A stretch of 39,743 nucleotides of DNA. It comes from a virus. A program made the translations under genes and the position numbers. Of the stretch, positions 25,469 to 35,727 are shown piece by piece (position 1 is the stretch's first letter; the number at the start of each line of letters is the position of its first letter). The notes beneath the pieces are model-generated. The model did no database searches, had not been told where the DNA came from, and was given only the letters and a program-made list of their open reading frames with translations. The DNA lies in IMG/VR virus record IMGVR_UViG_3300044824_000144, positions 1-39,743 of that record; one strand, written 5' to 3'.

Positions 25469-26437
25469 TTAGAATGTTATTCCCGCTAGGCGAGTACTAA
25501 CGACGTTTCGGATAGCTGTATCTTGTGTTATTGCTTGCGCTTGAGCAAACTTAACTGCAAGAGTAGCATTTTGGGCCAACATACCACTGTAGTACGGGTC
25601 ACGATAAATCAAATTCATTGAAAAACCATCTTGATTTATATGAGTCACTGCTTGTTTTCCAACAACTGTATTATAATAAACGTCTTGTCCGTTAGCTGAT
25701 GCACCACGGGCTACAGGAGCTTCGGAACTTGTTAAAATACGGATATTAAATACTGATCCATATTCAGAAGGTAAAGCAGAAGCATTTGTAGGATAATTCC
25801 ACTGTGACAAGAATCCTTGTCCAGTTAATCCGTCAAAGTCTGTTTGTAGTTCTGTGCTAGAAAGCATAAAATATGCTGATCTAACAGGGCCTGTTCCAAA
25901 ACGATCCATACCTTCAATACCTGACATAAACTTATAGGCATTGTTAGTATCGAGAGTAGTAGCAACTAAACTAAAGTCTGATATACCCAAATTTGTTGGA
26001 TTATCGTTATTGCTTCCCCCTCCTGCGTTAATCACCGATGAAGAGGAAACGATATAATCACGAAGGATTAAATCTTCTGCTTGACGCATAGCAACTGCTA
26101 AACGCTCTGACACCCAAGCCAAAACGCCTTCTTGGTCTTGCAAAATAACTTGTTCGTTAATAATGCAACCTGTACCGAAGAATGCCATTTGAGCATCGAT
26201 AATATCTCTTTGAGGAACTTGAGCTGGTGGGTCAATACCTGAGTTTCCTAATTGAACAGTAGGTGGCTGTAATGCGCGTGGACGCATAAATCTGCAAGTA
26301 GTTCCACCTTGTGATGGCATACTGACTTTATCGCAGATAGTAATGTAATTCATGGTTGGCGTTGGAACATAAAGCATTGCAGGCGCGAGCGATTGCAATA
26401 TTAATGGTCCAAGATTGCCGGTTGTCGTAATAGACAT
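25469..26437 (-). CDS. Major capsid protein, N4-gp56 family type
   Basis: This 322-residue protein has an alpha/beta composition and blocks TTCRFMRPRALQPPTVQLG, INEQVILQDQEGVLAWVSER, EDLILRDYIVSSSS and AYFMLSSTELQTDF that fit the N4-gp56 major capsid family (HK97 fold). It lies behind the scaffold in the late order and has the best promoter of the window plus a long structured leader, as expected for the most abundant virion protein. An AGAGGT site precedes the ATG. Confidence 0.87.
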   Translation of the reverse strand: MSITTTGNLGPLILQSLAPAMLYVPTPTMNYITICDKVSMPSQGGTTCRFMRPRALQPPTVQLGNSGIDPPAQVPQRDIIDAQMAFFGTGCIINEQVILQDQEGVLAWVSERLAVAMRQAEDLILRDYIVSSSSVINAGGGSNNDNPTNLGISDFSLVATTLDTNNAYKFMSGIEGMDRFGTGPVRSAYFMLSSTELQTDFDGLTGQGFLSQWNYPTNASALPSEYGSVFNIRILTSSEAPVARGASANGQDVYYNTVVGKQAVTHINQDGFSMNLIYRDPYYSGMLAQNATLAVKFAQAQAITQDTAIRNVVSTRLAGITF

Positions 26438-26547
26438 TTCAACCTCTTTGGTCGAAAGTAAATATTGACGTGATGATCGGGAGACGAGCCTAGTTACGTA
26501 ATTTTTCGATCACATCTTGATGTGGGTGCGATATCCACTACGCGATT

Positions 26548-26563
26548 GTCCATGACGCAGGAC
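26548..26563 (-). promoter_or_regulatory. Leader RNA hairpin of the capsid transcript
   Basis: In the capsid leader GUCC-UGCGUCAU-GGAC can form a 4-bp stem with an 8-base loop, near the expected 5' end of the transcript. An almost identical element with a compensating closing pair (A-U for G-C) stands before the scaffold gene. The leader (~130 bases) is visibly less AT-rich than its flanks and contains a second inverted repeat, CACATC-GATGTG. Confidence 0.55.
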
Positions 26564-26576
26564 TGGCGAGATTTAC

Positions 26577-26605
26577 ATATAATAAATTATTTATTATTAT
26601 GTCAA
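26577..26605 (-). promoter_or_regulatory. Strong capsid-gene promoter
   Basis: On the minus strand a perfect TTGACA is followed after 17 bases by TTATAT. It is the best sigma70-type promoter I found and drives the major capsid gene with a leader of about 130 bases. Strength fits the need for capsid protein; the terminator at 24250 closes the unit. Confidence 0.82.
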
Positions 26606-26668
26606 TATTTGTTCTTCCTTTTTTTTTACTTATTCTTTATCCTATTTTTTAATTAAAACAGGAAAAAC

Positions 26669-27196
26669 ATGAAAATCTGGGTATATAATTTAGGAAATTG
26701 GATAAAAGATGGTTATGAATTATTAGATTGGACTGAGAATGAAAAAAATCAGCAAGATTTTCTTAAAAAAAATGGATTCAATGAATATTGTTTAAAAAGT
26801 TTAGGTTCTGTAGAAAGCAATCAAGTTGAAATTTATTCAAATGAAGATGAAGATATATTTTTAGCTGATATTCCGACTGTTGATTTTAGTTTTTATTTTT
26901 TAATTCCTAATTATCCTTCATATTTAATGTATTTAACAGAATATAAAAATTTATATGAAATAAAAAAGCCAGATTTAATCCAAATTTACGATGGAAACTG
27001 GATAACTAAACAATCTATTACACAAATAAAACTTGAAAATAATAATAAAAGTGAATCTATTTATGCAGAACTTATTGGAGATGATGGATTATTACTTCTT
27101 GAAAAATTTGATTATGTCAAAGATATTAAAGGTAATTTAATTTCAAATCATAAATATTTCGACTGGATTAGAAAATATTTTTATCTTGAGGATTAA
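26669..27196 (+). CDS. Hypothetical protein, first gene of the capsid-side plus island
   Basis: This 175-residue acidic protein is unrecognised. Residues about 1-95 contain WVYNLGNWIKDGYELLDW; residues about 98-170 (LIQIYDGNWITKQSITQIKL and after) resemble the whole of the next protein, so one domain is shared in tandem genes. CAGGA precedes the ATG. The gene starts 232 bases from the divergent capsid gene. Confidence 0.65.
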   Translation: MKIWVYNLGNWIKDGYELLDWTENEKNQQDFLKKNGFNEYCLKSLGSVESNQVEIYSNEDEDIFLADIPTVDFSFYFLIPNYPSYLMYLTEYKNLYEIKKPDLIQIYDGNWITKQSITQIKLENNNKSESIYAELIGDDGLLLLEKFDYVKDIKGNLISNHKYFDWIRKYFYLED

Positions 27197-27197
27197 T

Positions 27198-27434
27198 ATG
27201 AAAAGTAATTTTATAAGAATTGAAGATGGTTCATATGTTAATTTGGATTATATATTGAGAATATATATTGATCGTGAATGTTATTCTAATTGCCCAGAAG
27301 AATATTATGTAAATTTTTCAGTAGAGTATGGAGACGATGTTTTAATTAAAGAATATTCTATACATTCAAATCGTAATGATGCAGAGAAATCTTTGGATGA
27401 ACTTTTCGATAGGAGATTATTAGGAAAAATATGA
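27198..27434 (+). CDS. Small paralogue of the preceding protein's C-terminal domain
   Basis: This 78-residue protein reads FIRIEDGSYVNLDYILRIYI, then FSVEYGDDVLIKEY, and a helical end (AEKSLDELF). It aligns by eye with the second half of the previous protein (LIQIYDGNWITKQSITQIKL ... helix). I chose the ATG preceded by GAGGA; a TTG four codons upstream overlaps the previous gene. Small beta-beta-helix fold of unknown role. Confidence 0.65.
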   Translation: MKSNFIRIEDGSYVNLDYILRIYIDRECYSNCPEEYYVNFSVEYGDDVLIKEYSIHSNRNDAEKSLDELFDRRLLGKI

Positions 27435-27811
27435 AAAATGAATACACAAGAGAATTACCTTTACCAAATTGCCCCCCAAAAATACCTAAAAAAAATGCAT
27501 GGATAGTATGGACTGTTAGCAATGAAGGAACAGGAAGAATTAAGGATTTGCAAGTTTATGAACTTAGTGAATATGAATTTCAAAAAGAAAAAACTCTTGA
27601 ATATGTTAATATGAGAACAAAAGAAAACAAAATTATTTACTTTGATATAGGGTGTATTTGTTCAGATTGGAACGAACATGAACTAAAAGATGTATTATTA
27701 CGACTTTGTGTTAGAGATGGATTTCAAAATCAAAAAACAATGATTGCATGTATGAAGAATCTAGCAACAATTGAAGAATTTCAAAAAGATATTGAAAAAT
27801 GGTTTAGATAA
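27431..27811 (+). CDS. Hypothetical protein
   Basis: This 126-residue protein is unrecognised. It overlaps the previous stop by ATGA, so translation is coupled. It has a proline-rich beginning (LPLPNCPPKIPKKNAWIVW) and several cysteines (CICSDW, RLCVRDGF) without clear zinc spacing. Mixed alpha/beta. Confidence 0.62.
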   Translation: MKNEYTRELPLPNCPPKIPKKNAWIVWTVSNEGTGRIKDLQVYELSEYEFQKEKTLEYVNMRTKENKIIYFDIGCICSDWNEHELKDVLLRLCVRDGFQNQKTMIACMKNLATIEEFQKDIEKWFR

Positions 27812-27858
27812 TGAAATTGAAAAGTTAAATCACTTTTTAAATGGATTGGTAAATTAGA

Positions 27859-28347
27859 ATGTCAAGCACTTGGGATGAGAAAAAGATTAAGAAACAGAAA
27901 TTAGAAAAGCGTTCGGTCAATATCGAAAGTGAATTTATAGGTGAATCGACAGGCCCTAAAAAGATTAAAGAAAAAAAATCAGATTTAACCGATGAAATAT
28001 ATAAATTTATAAATGAACCTAAATCTATAGAAAGTATTAAAAGAATTTTGATACGACTTCAAACACGACTTGATGAAAGAGAGATAGAAACATCTACAAT
28101 TAAAATATATACACTTCCTTCTAGATGTAATGATATTCACTTTTTCATAGTTATAAAAATAAATCATCATCATGGATACGAATATCTTTTGTCATATAGT
28201 GATTTTGTTTCAATCAGAAGTTTTAGGAATGAAAAATGCAACACTTCTCCTCTTAAAAAAGATCTCTGTTGGCATATAAGAAATTGGTTACAAGATAATA
28301 TAAAAACAATAGACCATACTCCTATTTTGCATAAGGAATTAACTTAA
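27859..28347 (+). CDS. Hypothetical protein
   Basis: This 162-residue protein is unrecognised. The first ~45 residues are Lys-rich and probably disordered; the rest is alpha/beta (SIESIKRILIRLQTRLDERE, then DIHFFIVIKINHHHGYEYLL). It has no strong ribosome site, and a 47-base gap precedes it. Its stop overlaps the next ATG by one base (TAATG). Confidence 0.6.
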   Translation: MSSTWDEKKIKKQKLEKRSVNIESEFIGESTGPKKIKEKKSDLTDEIYKFINEPKSIESIKRILIRLQTRLDEREIETSTIKIYTLPSRCNDIHFFIVIKINHHHGYEYLLSYSDFVSIRSFRNEKCNTSPLKKDLCWHIRNWLQDNIKTIDHTPILHKELT

Positions 28348-28640
28348 TGAAATGGATAAATGTTAAAGATAGGTTACCTGAACCTGGTCAAGTAGTATTG
28401 GTAGAATTAAATTATTCGCAACCATTTATGTGTGTTGCTCGTTTTGTGGATCAAATAATCACTTTGGATGGTGATTATAAAAATACTTTTTTTATGTTGG
28501 TTCATCCTAGATTTCCTAAACCTTGGGCATTTTCTAATGAATATAAAAAAATAGCACGATTTAAAAAAGATAAAGTAAAAAGATGGATGAGTATTCCTGA
28601 TTTAATAACTAAATATAAAGAAGATTGGCATGAAAATTAA
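28347..28640 (+). CDS. DUF551-like protein
   Basis: The 97-residue protein begins MKWINVKDRLPEPGQVVLVE, the hallmark of the DUF551 family (PF04448), small proteins frequent in phages and prophages. The typical central aromatic and the C-terminal tryptophan (KRWMSIPDL) are present. No biochemical role is established. It is the last gene of the island, ending at a hairpin and a short tandem repeat. Confidence 0.8.
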   Translation: MKWINVKDRLPEPGQVVLVELNYSQPFMCVARFVDQIITLDGDYKNTFFMLVHPRFPKPWAFSNEYKKIARFKKDKVKRWMSIPDLITKYKEDWHEN

Positions 28641-28654
28641 CCCCTGAGAGGGGT
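28640..28654. terminator. Possible weak bidirectional terminator
   Basis: ACCCCT pairs with AGGGGT around a 3-base loop, directly after the stop of the DUF551-like gene and before the end of the convergent zinc-ribbon gene. A minus-strand TAATTTT run follows; the plus side is weaker, with the T-rich run about 25 bases further on. Confidence 0.45.
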
Positions 28655-28688
28655 CGATTTGGTGATTGAGAGGGGTCGATTTTGTTTC
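28645..28688. repeat. 22-bp tandem repeat, two copies
   Basis: The 16-base core TGAGAGGGGTCGATTT occurs twice at a 22-base period in the gap between convergent genes. Only the first copy has the left arm needed for the hairpin. It may be a slipped duplication of the terminator area. Confidence 0.7.
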
Positions 28689-28693
28689 TTTTG

Positions 28694-28927
28694 TTACATC
28701 TTTTTATTTATATTTTCATATTCATTTTTTAAACATTTTGTACAATACCAATCAAAACTATCTTCTTTTTTTGTATAATCTTTACAAGTTTTACAATAAC
28801 TAGGATGTGAAAAATCTTTCTTTTCAGGTTTTTCTTTGCAAAAATTACAGATAGGTACGGAGTCTCTTACCTTTGTGTATATGAGATCTCCGCATGAAGT
28901 ACATTCTCTAAGATATTTTTTAGCCAT
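28694..28927 (-). CDS. Double zinc-ribbon protein
   Basis: This 77-residue protein carries four cysteine pairs (CTSC, CNFC, CKTC, CTKC), i.e. two zinc sites in a row like the ends of many small regulators. It begins MAKKYLRECTSCGD, the common start of small phage zinc-finger proteins. It is downstream of the scaffold gene with only five bases between. Binding to nucleic acid or protein is likely; role unknown. Confidence 0.72.
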   Translation of the reverse strand: MAKKYLRECTSCGDLIYTKVRDSVPICNFCKEKPEKKDFSHPSYCKTCKDYTKKEDSFDWYCTKCLKNEYENINKKM

Positions 28928-28932
28928 TTAAA

Positions 28933-29574
28933 TCAAATCCTAAGTCTACTTTGTAATTCTTTCATCTTTTCATAGGCGTTTTTCTTGCCACTATTGCTAA
29001 AATCGCCTTGTGAAGAGTATGGCGTACTTCCTGTGCCAGATGGTTGATAAAATGGACTTCTTCTATTTGCATCAACTTTATCTTGAATAGATTGTTGTTT
29101 TACTTCTGGTCTATCTAAACCTAATTCTTTAATACTTTGATAAACAAGTTTTTGTCTTTCAAAGTTATCAGGCATATTTAGAATTGTTTTAGCTAAAGCA
29201 GGAGATCTTTGAGCTAATTTATCTGCATTATTTTTTAATACATCAAAGAAATCGGCATTGTTTTCTAACCAAACTTCTTGCCTTTCTTGCTCACGTGCTT
29301 GTTGAACAGCTTTTTGAATTTCACTAACCGTTTCTTGTTTGATTTGTTGACCAAATTTTGCTTGTTCTCGTCGTAATTTCTTATGATCAACATAAGGTTC
29401 GTTATCATCTTCTTCTTCATGTAAAGCGGGTTTACTTCTCTCTTGTGCGATTCTTTCCGCTTCTATACGAGCAGATCTTTCTTGAGCTAATAATCGTTCG
29501 TACTTCTGTTCTTGATTTCTAAAATTAATTTCTTTATCACTTGGTTTATTTTCTTGATTTTCTTGTGCACTCAT
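28933..29574 (-). CDS. Probable capsid scaffolding protein
   Basis: This 213-residue, highly charged, Gln/Glu/Lys-rich protein has a long predicted coiled coil (about 20-105: KYERLLAQERSARIEAERIA and following), a helical middle and a basic end (AYEKMKELQSRLRI). Composition, size and location between portal and capsid genes fit scaffolds, whose C-terminus binds coat protein. The assignment rests on these features. A conserved hairpin stands just before its AAAGGA ribosome site. Confidence 0.72.
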   Translation of the reverse strand: MSAQENQENKPSDKEINFRNQEQKYERLLAQERSARIEAERIAQERSKPALHEEEDDNEPYVDHKKLRREQAKFGQQIKQETVSEIQKAVQQAREQERQEVWLENNADFFDVLKNNADKLAQRSPALAKTILNMPDNFERQKLVYQSIKELGLDRPEVKQQSIQDKVDANRRSPFYQPSGTGSTPYSSQGDFSNSGKKNAYEKMKELQSRLRI

Positions 29575-29590
29575 GATAATTACATCCTTT

Positions 29591-29606
29591 ATCCGTGACG
29601 CAGGAT
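29591..29606 (-). promoter_or_regulatory. Leader RNA hairpin of the scaffold gene
   Basis: AUCC-UGCGUCAC-GGAU forms the same small stem-loop as in the capsid leader, with the closing pair A-U in place of G-C. The stem ends two bases before the AAAGGA ribosome site of the scaffold gene, a position where a bound protein could block translation. Confidence 0.55.
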
Positions 29607-29617
29607 TGCGGTTGGAT

Positions 29618-29659: not shown

Positions 29660-29938
29660 ATGAAATATAGTGTACAAAAAGTTTTAAGAATTGATTTAAC
29701 CATGGATTCCTCTGAGCTTATTATTTTTGAGAAGGGAGGAAGACATGAAGTTTTAATAAAAAAAGAATATGATCCTGAGGAAGGGGATGATGATGGATGG
29801 TTGGGTAATGAATTAAAAGGCCATTGGGATGAGGTGAAAATTACTGTTCAATCTGAAGATAGAGGGCGATTTAATTTCATAAAAGAATCAGCTGAAAAAA
29901 ATGAACATTTTAAGAGAATGCAAAATGAAATTAAATAG
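29660..29938 (+). CDS. Hypothetical acidic protein
   Basis: This 92-residue acidic protein is unrecognised (RIDLTMDSSELIIFEKGG, EEGDDDGWLGNELKGHWDE). Mainly beta at first, helical at the end. It overlaps the next gene by 14 bases. It could be a DNA mimic by charge, but composition alone does not establish that. Confidence 0.62.
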   Translation: MKYSVQKVLRIDLTMDSSELIIFEKGGRHEVLIKKEYDPEEGDDDGWLGNELKGHWDEVKITVQSEDRGRFNFIKESAEKNEHFKRMQNEIK

Positions 29939-30407
29939 ACTTGAAACTCATGATAGATTAGAACATTTCACAAAACAAGATTTTAACATTGGTGAATGTT
30001 GCCAAAATCTTGTTAATCAAAGACCATTTGGCGATCATGCTTTTTATATTTTTGCACATACACGCACGGATGATGATGGCGTCACTAAAAGATTAATATG
30101 GCAACCACGATTGACTAAACCTAAATCACAAACTAATTCTATGTTGTTTAAGGTTTATCCTGGCTCAGATCAAATAAAAGTAATTTGGATGATTCCAGCC
30201 ACGGAATTATGGTACTCATTCGAGCGTGGAAAAATGACAGAGAATCAAACCATATTAGATAGTATTGAGAAATTCAGATATCATAGGCACTTTCTTGATT
30301 CACCAGAACCCGATGATTTAAGTGATGAAAGAATTAATGAGATCTACAGACAATTATCTATAAGTGCAAGAGAGAAGAAAGCAATGGAGAAAAAAGAGAA
30401 TGAATGA
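29925..30407 (+). CDS. Conserved phage protein, hypothetical
   Basis: The 160-residue protein contains FGDHAFYIFAHTRTDDDGVT, RLIWQPRLTKPKSQTN and VIWMIPATELWYSFERGK, a pattern I recall from uncharacterised podovirus proteins. I chose the ATG preceded by AAGAG within the previous gene; an upstream in-frame ATG exists. No catalytic motif. The next gene starts inside its last eight bases. Confidence 0.65.
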   Translation: MKLNRLETHDRLEHFTKQDFNIGECCQNLVNQRPFGDHAFYIFAHTRTDDDGVTKRLIWQPRLTKPKSQTNSMLFKVYPGSDQIKVIWMIPATELWYSFERGKMTENQTILDSIEKFRYHRHFLDSPEPDDLSDERINEIYRQLSISAREKKAMEKKENE

Positions 30408-34463: not shown

Positions 34464-35727
34464 ATCTATTCCTTAGGAAAGTGTCTGCTTGTTCTTTCTC
34501 TTTGTATGGATCATATGTATTCACTTTGTGCGAAGCAACGGCATATCTTAAGGCATCGATGGCGTGGTCGTTCTTCTTAATAGGTTTATCTTCGCCTTTC
34601 TCTGCTGCCTTAGAATCCCAAACATATCCTTCGATTTCCTTAATGAGATTAACACACTCATCCATTACAAATAAATTACCTTTTTTCATCTCAGAAGTCA
34701 TGATCCTGATACCATCCTCGACGTCATTGTTGGCATTCACAACATGAACTCCTAGGCGTTGTAATTCTAGTCTAAAAGACGCAGCGCTTGGGTCCATGTA
34801 AAGCTGCTTTACATCATATGGTTCTAGAAACTCTTGGATATCTCTTGCAAATTCACTATTTGTCTTTTGTCTTCCTTGTACTTTAGGGTCCCAATAGTAT
34901 TCCTTCTCTACCCACATTACTTTTCCTGTCTGAGTGCGCATACCTGTCGATACGCCCACCAAAATACACGCGAAGGGATTAACAGCACCATAATCAATGC
35001 CTGCAATCCAATAATCAGCGCCTGCAGGAGGGCGAGAGCATACATATATACTGTGGTCAAAGAAATCAAAAATAGATCCTTCAGCCAAGCACCACATCCC
35101 AAGATAATTTCTTTTATAGAATAAGCCTGACAAGCTGTTCTTGATTCTTTGCTTATAATCAAGATCAACGAAAGGATTATCATCGAGAGTAAAATGAAGT
35201 TCATAATAGTTTTTGTCTCCTGCAATTGCTTTATCAATCCATTTCTTAATCTTATGCGATGGATAGGACGGATTCATACTAGCAAAACCACGACTATGTG
35301 ATGGCGATAAACGTGTGTCAATCATGTCAATAATCGATTCTGGATAAAGAGTCATTTCATCACATAAAACTAAAGAATATGTATCACCTTGAAAATTTTG
35401 AATCGCTCCTTCATCTTTAGCACCCAAAACAGTTATAGTCTTATCTTTAAATCTAAGCTTTCTATTACTCCATGTGCAAAATGGTCTAAAGATAGCCATC
35501 TCTTTTGAGTTTAAAATAAGTGTTATAACATTACGATAGGCTGTTTCTGACGTGTGGCCCACAATATATATTTTTGAATCCGGGCATTCATTTACTGCTT
35601 GCATAAAAGCAAAGGTCGTTGCTACAGTTTTACCAGATCGCACAGAGCCGTGCGTGATGTTCCATTTGCAAGTGCAATTTGCTACAAATTCGAGTTGTTT
35701 TGGGGATAATAATGGAGTCATATCCAT
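34441..35727 (-). CDS. terL: Terminase large subunit
   Basis: This 428-residue DNA-packaging motor has an ATPase with a Walker A-type GSVRSGKT (27-34), a Walker B region ending LCDE (D123, E124), and a C-terminal RNase-H-like nuclease with the first acidic residue in IAGIDYGAVNPFA, the second in QLYMDPSAASF and the last in DHAIDALRYAV. It cuts and translocates DNA into the head with terS and portal. The length is normal for P22/T7-like terminases of this kind. The ATG is only 23 bases from the divergent start of a plus-strand island. Confidence 0.95.
   Translation of the reverse strand: MDMTPLLSPKQLEFVANCTCKWNITHGSVRSGKTVATTFAFMQAVNECPDSKIYIVGHTSETAYRNVITLILNSKEMAIFRPFCTWSNRKLRFKDKTITVLGAKDEGAIQNFQGDTYSLVLCDEMTLYPESIIDMIDTRLSPSHSRGFASMNPSYPSHKIKKWIDKAIAGDKNYYELHFTLDDNPFVDLDYKQRIKNSLSGLFYKRNYLGMWCLAEGSIFDFFDHSIYVCSRPPAGADYWIAGIDYGAVNPFACILVGVSTGMRTQTGKVMWVEKEYYWDPKVQGRQKTNSEFARDIQEFLEPYDVKQLYMDPSAASFRLELQRLGVHVVNANNDVEDGIRIMTSEMKKGNLFVMDECVNLIKEIEGYVWDSKAAEKGEDKPIKKNDHAIDALRYAVASHKVNTYDPYKEKEQADTFLRNRYEPTRRT

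Follow-up and report, generated by a model that had tools for sequence, protein, structure and literature searches.

The leaders of the major capsid gene and of a putative scaffold gene in IMG/VR virus record IMGVR_UViG_3300044824_000144 (positions 1 to 39,743, a stretch of 39,743 nucleotides (nt) referred to here as the window) each contain a predicted RNA pseudoknot. Covariation among related phages shows that, in this clade, compact pseudoknots of the predicted H-type occur at two fixed places, one in the capsid mRNA and the other in the scaffold mRNA, where the knot is set against the Shine-Dalgarno sequence. As read from the same alignments, each knot combines an invariant core, CG-N ... 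N'-CG-U-N-A, with S2 arms that are free in sequence but complementary. The shared knot resembles a cis-acting switch, so far undescribed, that would control the building of the virus shell, and no description of the element was found in the literature searched. The putative scaffold gene is named from its position, and its product has no PHROG or Pfam match. The elements of the two sites are as follows.

29591-29610, minus strand: scaffold-leader pseudoknot; S1, CGC 29610-29608 with GCG 29601-29599; S2, AUCC 29606-29603 with GGAU 29594-29591; L3, UCAC
29585-29590, minus strand: scaffold Shine-Dalgarno sequence AAAGGA, directly 3' of the pseudoknot
28933-29574, minus strand: putative scaffold gene, 213 amino acids, helical and charged; present in 71 of 80 relatives
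26548-26568, minus strand: capsid-leader pseudoknot PK1; S1, CGC 26568-26566 with GCG 26558-26556; S2, GUCC 26563-26560 with GGAC 26551-26548; L3, UCAU
25469-26437, minus strand: major capsid protein gene (PHROG 1357, major head protein, E 1.6e-16)

The two sites in the window

Read 5' to 3' on the minus strand, PK1 is CGC-CA-GUCC-U-GCG-UCAU-GGAC (26568-26548), and the scaffold knot is CGC-A-AUCC-U-GCG-UCAC-GGAU (29610-29591), after which come AA-AGGA and the ATG at 29574. The portions common to both were first noticed in a sequence-only reading of the window, as GTCC-TGCGTCAT-GGAC at 26563-26548 in the capsid leader and ATCC-TGCGTCAC-GGAT at 29606-29591 in the scaffold leader. Over 18 bases the two leaders differ at three positions, two of which form the closing pair (G-C in one, A-U in the other), and the stem was correctly placed two bases before the ribosome site, as the 3' strand of scaffold S2 is followed by two A's and then AGGA. 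The 4-bp stem described in both leaders is also real, but it is not that of a simple stem-loop, since it is S2 of an H-type pseudoknot; the pairing of the upstream CGC with the loop GCG had been overlooked, along with, in the capsid leader, two further modules and the hairpin that holds the Shine-Dalgarno sequence.

With up to three mismatches, the pattern RTCCTGCGTCAYGGAY matches both leader sites and no other site in the window (0.51 matches expected; 12 of 100 shuffles give at least two), and the next-closest match has five mismatches. The energy z-scores of the two sites in single-sequence folding, -1.9 and -1.0, are unremarkable. A scan of the whole window for knot modules in either strand order recovered both sites, the module at 26543-26522, and a plus-strand site at 35639 that was taken as a chance match. 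The window alone is weak evidence for the element, and the evidence became decisive only once relatives were added.

Covariation among relatives

The relatives are 80 IMG/VR loci pulled in by similarity of the capsid protein, in which the scaffold genes were located by profile search. Leaders entered the covariation sets by matching an anchor defined on sequence alone, CG-N ... N-CG-U-N-A, with pairing partners fixed by distance; because the anchor demands the first two S1 pairs, these pairs provide no evidence in the covariation tables. In the capsid set, 90.3% of PK1 pair cells are paired (75.4% with shuffled partners) and the covariation score is 0.493 compared to 0.202, while in the scaffold set 87.4% of cells are paired (76.9% shuffled) and the score is 0.325 compared to 0.144. 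None of 500 shuffles reaches the observed score in either set, which strongly supports the earlier suggestion of a shared RNA element kept by base pairing. All four S2 pairs and the third S1 pair lie above shuffled partners in both sets, with two-sided changes that number 29 in the capsid set and 36 in the scaffold set. The third S1 pair is seen as C-G, U-A, U-G, and G-C, and some leaders have other forms of S1 (CGG/CCG and CAU/AUG). When partners are shifted by one to three columns, pairing drops to 25-50%. In a separate control, leader halves were exchanged between phages and the helix count was repeated. By this measure, an S2 of at least 3 bp is formed in 47 of 56 capsid leaders compared to 19.2 after the swap, and in 36 of 43 scaffold leaders compared to 24.6.

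Arms of an inverted repeat also change together in DNA, as they would in an operator with dyad symmetry serving, for example, late transcription. However, the interleaved pairing of S1 and S2 forms no DNA dyad, the arm sequences are free to vary, and the position of the knot is tied to the Shine-Dalgarno sequence rather than to a promoter. Furthermore, among S2 helices with at least three Watson-Crick pairs, the odd pair is G-U 14 times and A-C once, as expected of coding-sense RNA and not of a symmetric DNA site. Together, these observations make a DNA-level operator the least probable explanation, with hardly any weight.

Architecture of the capsid leader

The knot forms part of a three-module leader in front of the capsid gene, which in the window contains the following additional features.

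26576-26605, minus strand: promoter-like TTGACA-17-TTATAT, ending 8 nt upstream of PK1
26522-26543, minus strand: module PK2, in permuted order; GCG 26543-26541 with CGC 26530-26528; GUGG 26538-26535 with CCAC 26525-26522
26467-26516, minus strand: third module, D3; outer helix GAUGUG 26516-26511 with CACGUC 26472-26467, enclosing PK3
Within D3, minus strand: PK3; ACG 26499-26497 with CGU 26486-26484; GG 26490-26489 with CC
26438-26456, minus strand: capsid Shine-Dalgarno hairpin, UUCGACC/GGUUGAA, directly 5' of the ATG

This order (promoter-like -10, PK1, PK2, D3, Shine-Dalgarno hairpin, ATG) is common to the capsid leaders of the relatives. TATAAT-like hexamers peak in frequency 7-8 nt upstream of PK1, and we infer from the promoter-like site that the capsid transcript would begin at PK1. 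The distance from the PK1 copy to the ATG is about 110-130 nt; taken together, the capsid-leader knots occupy a region about 40-130 nt upstream, close to the presumed start of the transcript.

The two half-strands of PK1, a CGC side and a GCGUNA side, recur in PK2 in reversed order, and in relatives PK2 takes the form GCGUUA-x-UCGCAA-x'. A PK2 helix of at least 4 bp is present in 51 of 70 leaders compared to 19.5 after half swap. D3, which in relatives contains a third GACG/CGUC module, is the best sequence-conserved stretch of the capsid leader, and most leaders are too conserved there for the half swap to be informative on the outer helix (44 compared to 42.6). Support for this helix comes from a few diverged leaders inspected by eye, and also by eye S1 of PK3 alternates between GACG/CGUC, GCG/CGC, and ACG/CGU. 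The Shine-Dalgarno hairpin reaches at least 5 bp in 57 of 73 leaders compared to a mean of 35.8 (maximum 49) after half swap, and its arms vary yet stay complementary (AACCU/AGGUU, ACCUC/GAGGU).

The minimum-energy fold favours a nested pairing of the PK1 CGC with the PK2 GCG. This fold was rejected, as the CGN of PK1 covaries with its own NCG, phages exist in which PK1 is CGU/ACG or CGG/CCG but PK2 retains GCG, and the scaffold leader is without a second module.

In ten of the relatives (L092, L094, L096, L097, L106, L112, L113, L114, L122, and L123), the capsid frame is cut to about 90-200 amino acids soon after the leader. This suggests that insertions, either introns or inteins, often interrupt the capsid gene, and an Rfam scan of a subset of these relatives gave no intron match.

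Specificity and independent contigs

Hold-out contigs were fetched with the portal protein, and neither the RNA nor the capsid was used in that scan. Among 30 new scaffold leaders, the anchor is found in 24 and the anchor with a paired S2 in 21. By the same rule, 5 of 691 starts of other genes and 1.3% of random windows qualify. Of 13 new capsid leaders, 11 have one or more anchored sites in which S2 is paired, one of them (L279) by a weak match only. Two new capsid leaders contain two tandem PK1-type modules each, with arms that are different but self-consistent. Two unguided DNA-pattern scans of IMG/VR returned, in this clade, matches in capsid or scaffold leaders only; the remaining matches are isolated, in unrelated contigs.

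In topology, size, and position, the element would suit a small-molecule riboswitch resembling preQ1-I, a small H-type pseudoknot near the Shine-Dalgarno sequence. However, no covariance model in Rfam 15, riboswitches included, matches at or above its gathering score, the knots accompany virion assembly genes only, and tandem copies occur within one leader, rendering a riboswitch highly improbable.

A search of 50,697 phage records found none with a relative of the capsid protein, the portal protein, or the divergently encoded protein (29925-30407). No cultured representative of the clade was found, and neither a capsid nor a portal of this clade could be recognised in any GenBank phage of the searched collection. 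Capsid relatives in bacterial metagenome-assembled genomes (L083-L088) fall in bins that span five unrelated phyla, and because these phyla are inconsistent, the bins cannot identify the host.

Proposed function

In most relatives, one knot lies directly 5' of the Shine-Dalgarno sequence of the scaffold gene. In 27 of 47 scaffold leaders the end of S2 falls 1 nt before the Shine-Dalgarno hexamer, and in roughly 10 others S2 overlaps this hexamer, as in the CCU/AGG pairing of L029. Given the footprint of the 30S subunit, a folded knot at that place would compete with initiation. Because the scaffold knot usually ends 1 nt before, or else overlaps, the Shine-Dalgarno sequence, it is best read as a translational operator, and this leading model is considered more probable than not. 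In such a mechanism, the folded knot would shut the 30S subunit out of the scaffold start site, while the folding or stability of the knot would be set by a factor acting in trans, which would read the capsid leader as well. The outcome would be coordinated control of shell-protein synthesis, probably by negative feedback.

Three observations weigh against a translational operator of this kind. Roughly a fifth of scaffold leaders are without the knot, which is thus not essential there. The capsid-leader knots are far from their Shine-Dalgarno sequence, so direct occlusion fails to explain the capsid copy; as this sequence lies in a separate covarying hairpin with the knots upstream, control there would be indirect. 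Finally, the loop and stem letters of the capsid and scaffold copies within one phage show no likeness above that between phages, and a shared factor would consequently have to read the invariant core CG...NCGU-N-A.

The proximity of the knot to the Shine-Dalgarno sequence, and a core that is invariant in phages whose genes have otherwise diverged, could also point to a translation enhancer, in which the knot would help initiation as a docking site for the 30S subunit, or for a ribosomal protein of the host such as S1, and no phage ligand would be needed. However, the placement of S2 over the Shine-Dalgarno sequence in several phages would impede initiation, and an enhancer is judged quite improbable. 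Alternatively, knots at the 5' end of late mRNAs could block 5'-end-dependent decay, with translation not being the target. This would agree with the two or three modules of the capsid leader and with the TATAAT-like hexamer upstream of PK1, from which the mRNA would start inside the knot. In scaffold leaders, however, the knot is fixed to the Shine-Dalgarno sequence and not to a promoter, the -10-like peaks lying 15-16 and 20-21 nt from the knot, and a 5'-end stabiliser is accordingly unlikely, if less so than an enhancer.

For the translational operator, the likeliest factor would be one of the assembly proteins, for example that of the capsid, acting through the invariant core, though this choice is a guess. 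Of the proteins examined, that of the capsid is the most conserved (median identity of 89% compared to 49-69%), a value inflated by the choice of loci by capsid similarity, and such conservation would fit an invariant core. A more ambitious and tentative proposal is that the knots form a new class of phage RNA regulator, a modular pseudoknot with fixed core and free arms, single on the scaffold mRNA and tandem or permuted on the capsid mRNA, to which unassembled capsid protein would bind so that the state of assembly sets both translations.

Two other candidates were considered. The zinc-ribbon protein was rejected as a clade-wide ligand or regulator, being absent in 80 of 80 relatives. The protein encoded at 29925-30407 on the plus strand was set aside, as its gene occurs with and without the scaffold knot and gives no support either way. 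This gene, of the LETHDRL family, lies just upstream of the scaffold gene in divergent orientation, and it is kept in 67 of 68 scaffold-bearing relatives despite opposing the late genes. Its product is modelled confidently by AlphaFold, with a pLDDT of 89.5; the model has no relative in the PDB, and the five matches are all uncharacterised proteins of uncultured phages.

Comparison with known operators

In MS2 and Qbeta, coat protein controls translation through an RNA operator, a bulged hairpin on the replicase gene. Unlike this hairpin, the present element is a pseudoknot, in which the loop GCG pairs with the upstream CGC, and it is found on capsid and scaffold genes of double-stranded DNA phages. 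In the double-stranded DNA phage P22, translational autoregulation by the scaffolding protein provides a post-transcriptional feedback that ties scaffold synthesis to assembly; we know of no conserved pseudoknot there, nor of any involvement of the capsid leader.

The closest described system is the pseudoknot operator of T4 gene 32, which a 2010 review regarded as possibly the sole viral pseudoknot in translational autoregulation (PMC3014915). As in gene 32 of T4, T2, and RB69, an H-type pseudoknot lies in a phage mRNA leader upstream of the start codon, with a proposed role in translation control (PMC3014915, PMC535899). In the gene 32 leader, a single knot with a known ligand, gp32, lies 67 nt upstream, and an unstructured AU-rich track comes after it (PMC3014915, PMC535899). 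In contrast, the scaffold knot adjoins the Shine-Dalgarno sequence with no intervening track of UUAA(A) repeats, a second gene shares the knot, and the capsid leader has tandem copies and further structured modules. A pseudoknot at the ribosome site is also found in the operator of Escherichia coli rpsO (ribosomal protein S15), which is thought to work by entrapment (PMC4137082). However, rpsO is a ribosomal protein gene with a bigger knot and a known ligand (PMC4137082), whereas the genes here encode capsid and putative scaffold.

Pseudoknot translational operators of phages have been nearly a single textbook case, that of T4 gene 32. A knot common to the capsid and scaffold genes of dozens of uncultured double-stranded DNA phages provides a concrete, mutable site that bears on the old question of how tailed phages fit coat and scaffold synthesis to assembly, and its tandem, permuted modules offer a compact natural series for the study of RNA-protein recognition.

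Genes between capsid and scaffold

Between the capsid and scaffold genes of the window lie five plus-strand open reading frames (26669-28640) and the zinc-ribbon gene (28694-28927, minus strand). Apart from one weak opposite-strand match to 27859-28347, practically no counterparts of these six genes occur in the 80 relatives, and by this comparison 26669-28640 plus 28694-28927 is a putative lineage-specific insertion in the head operon.
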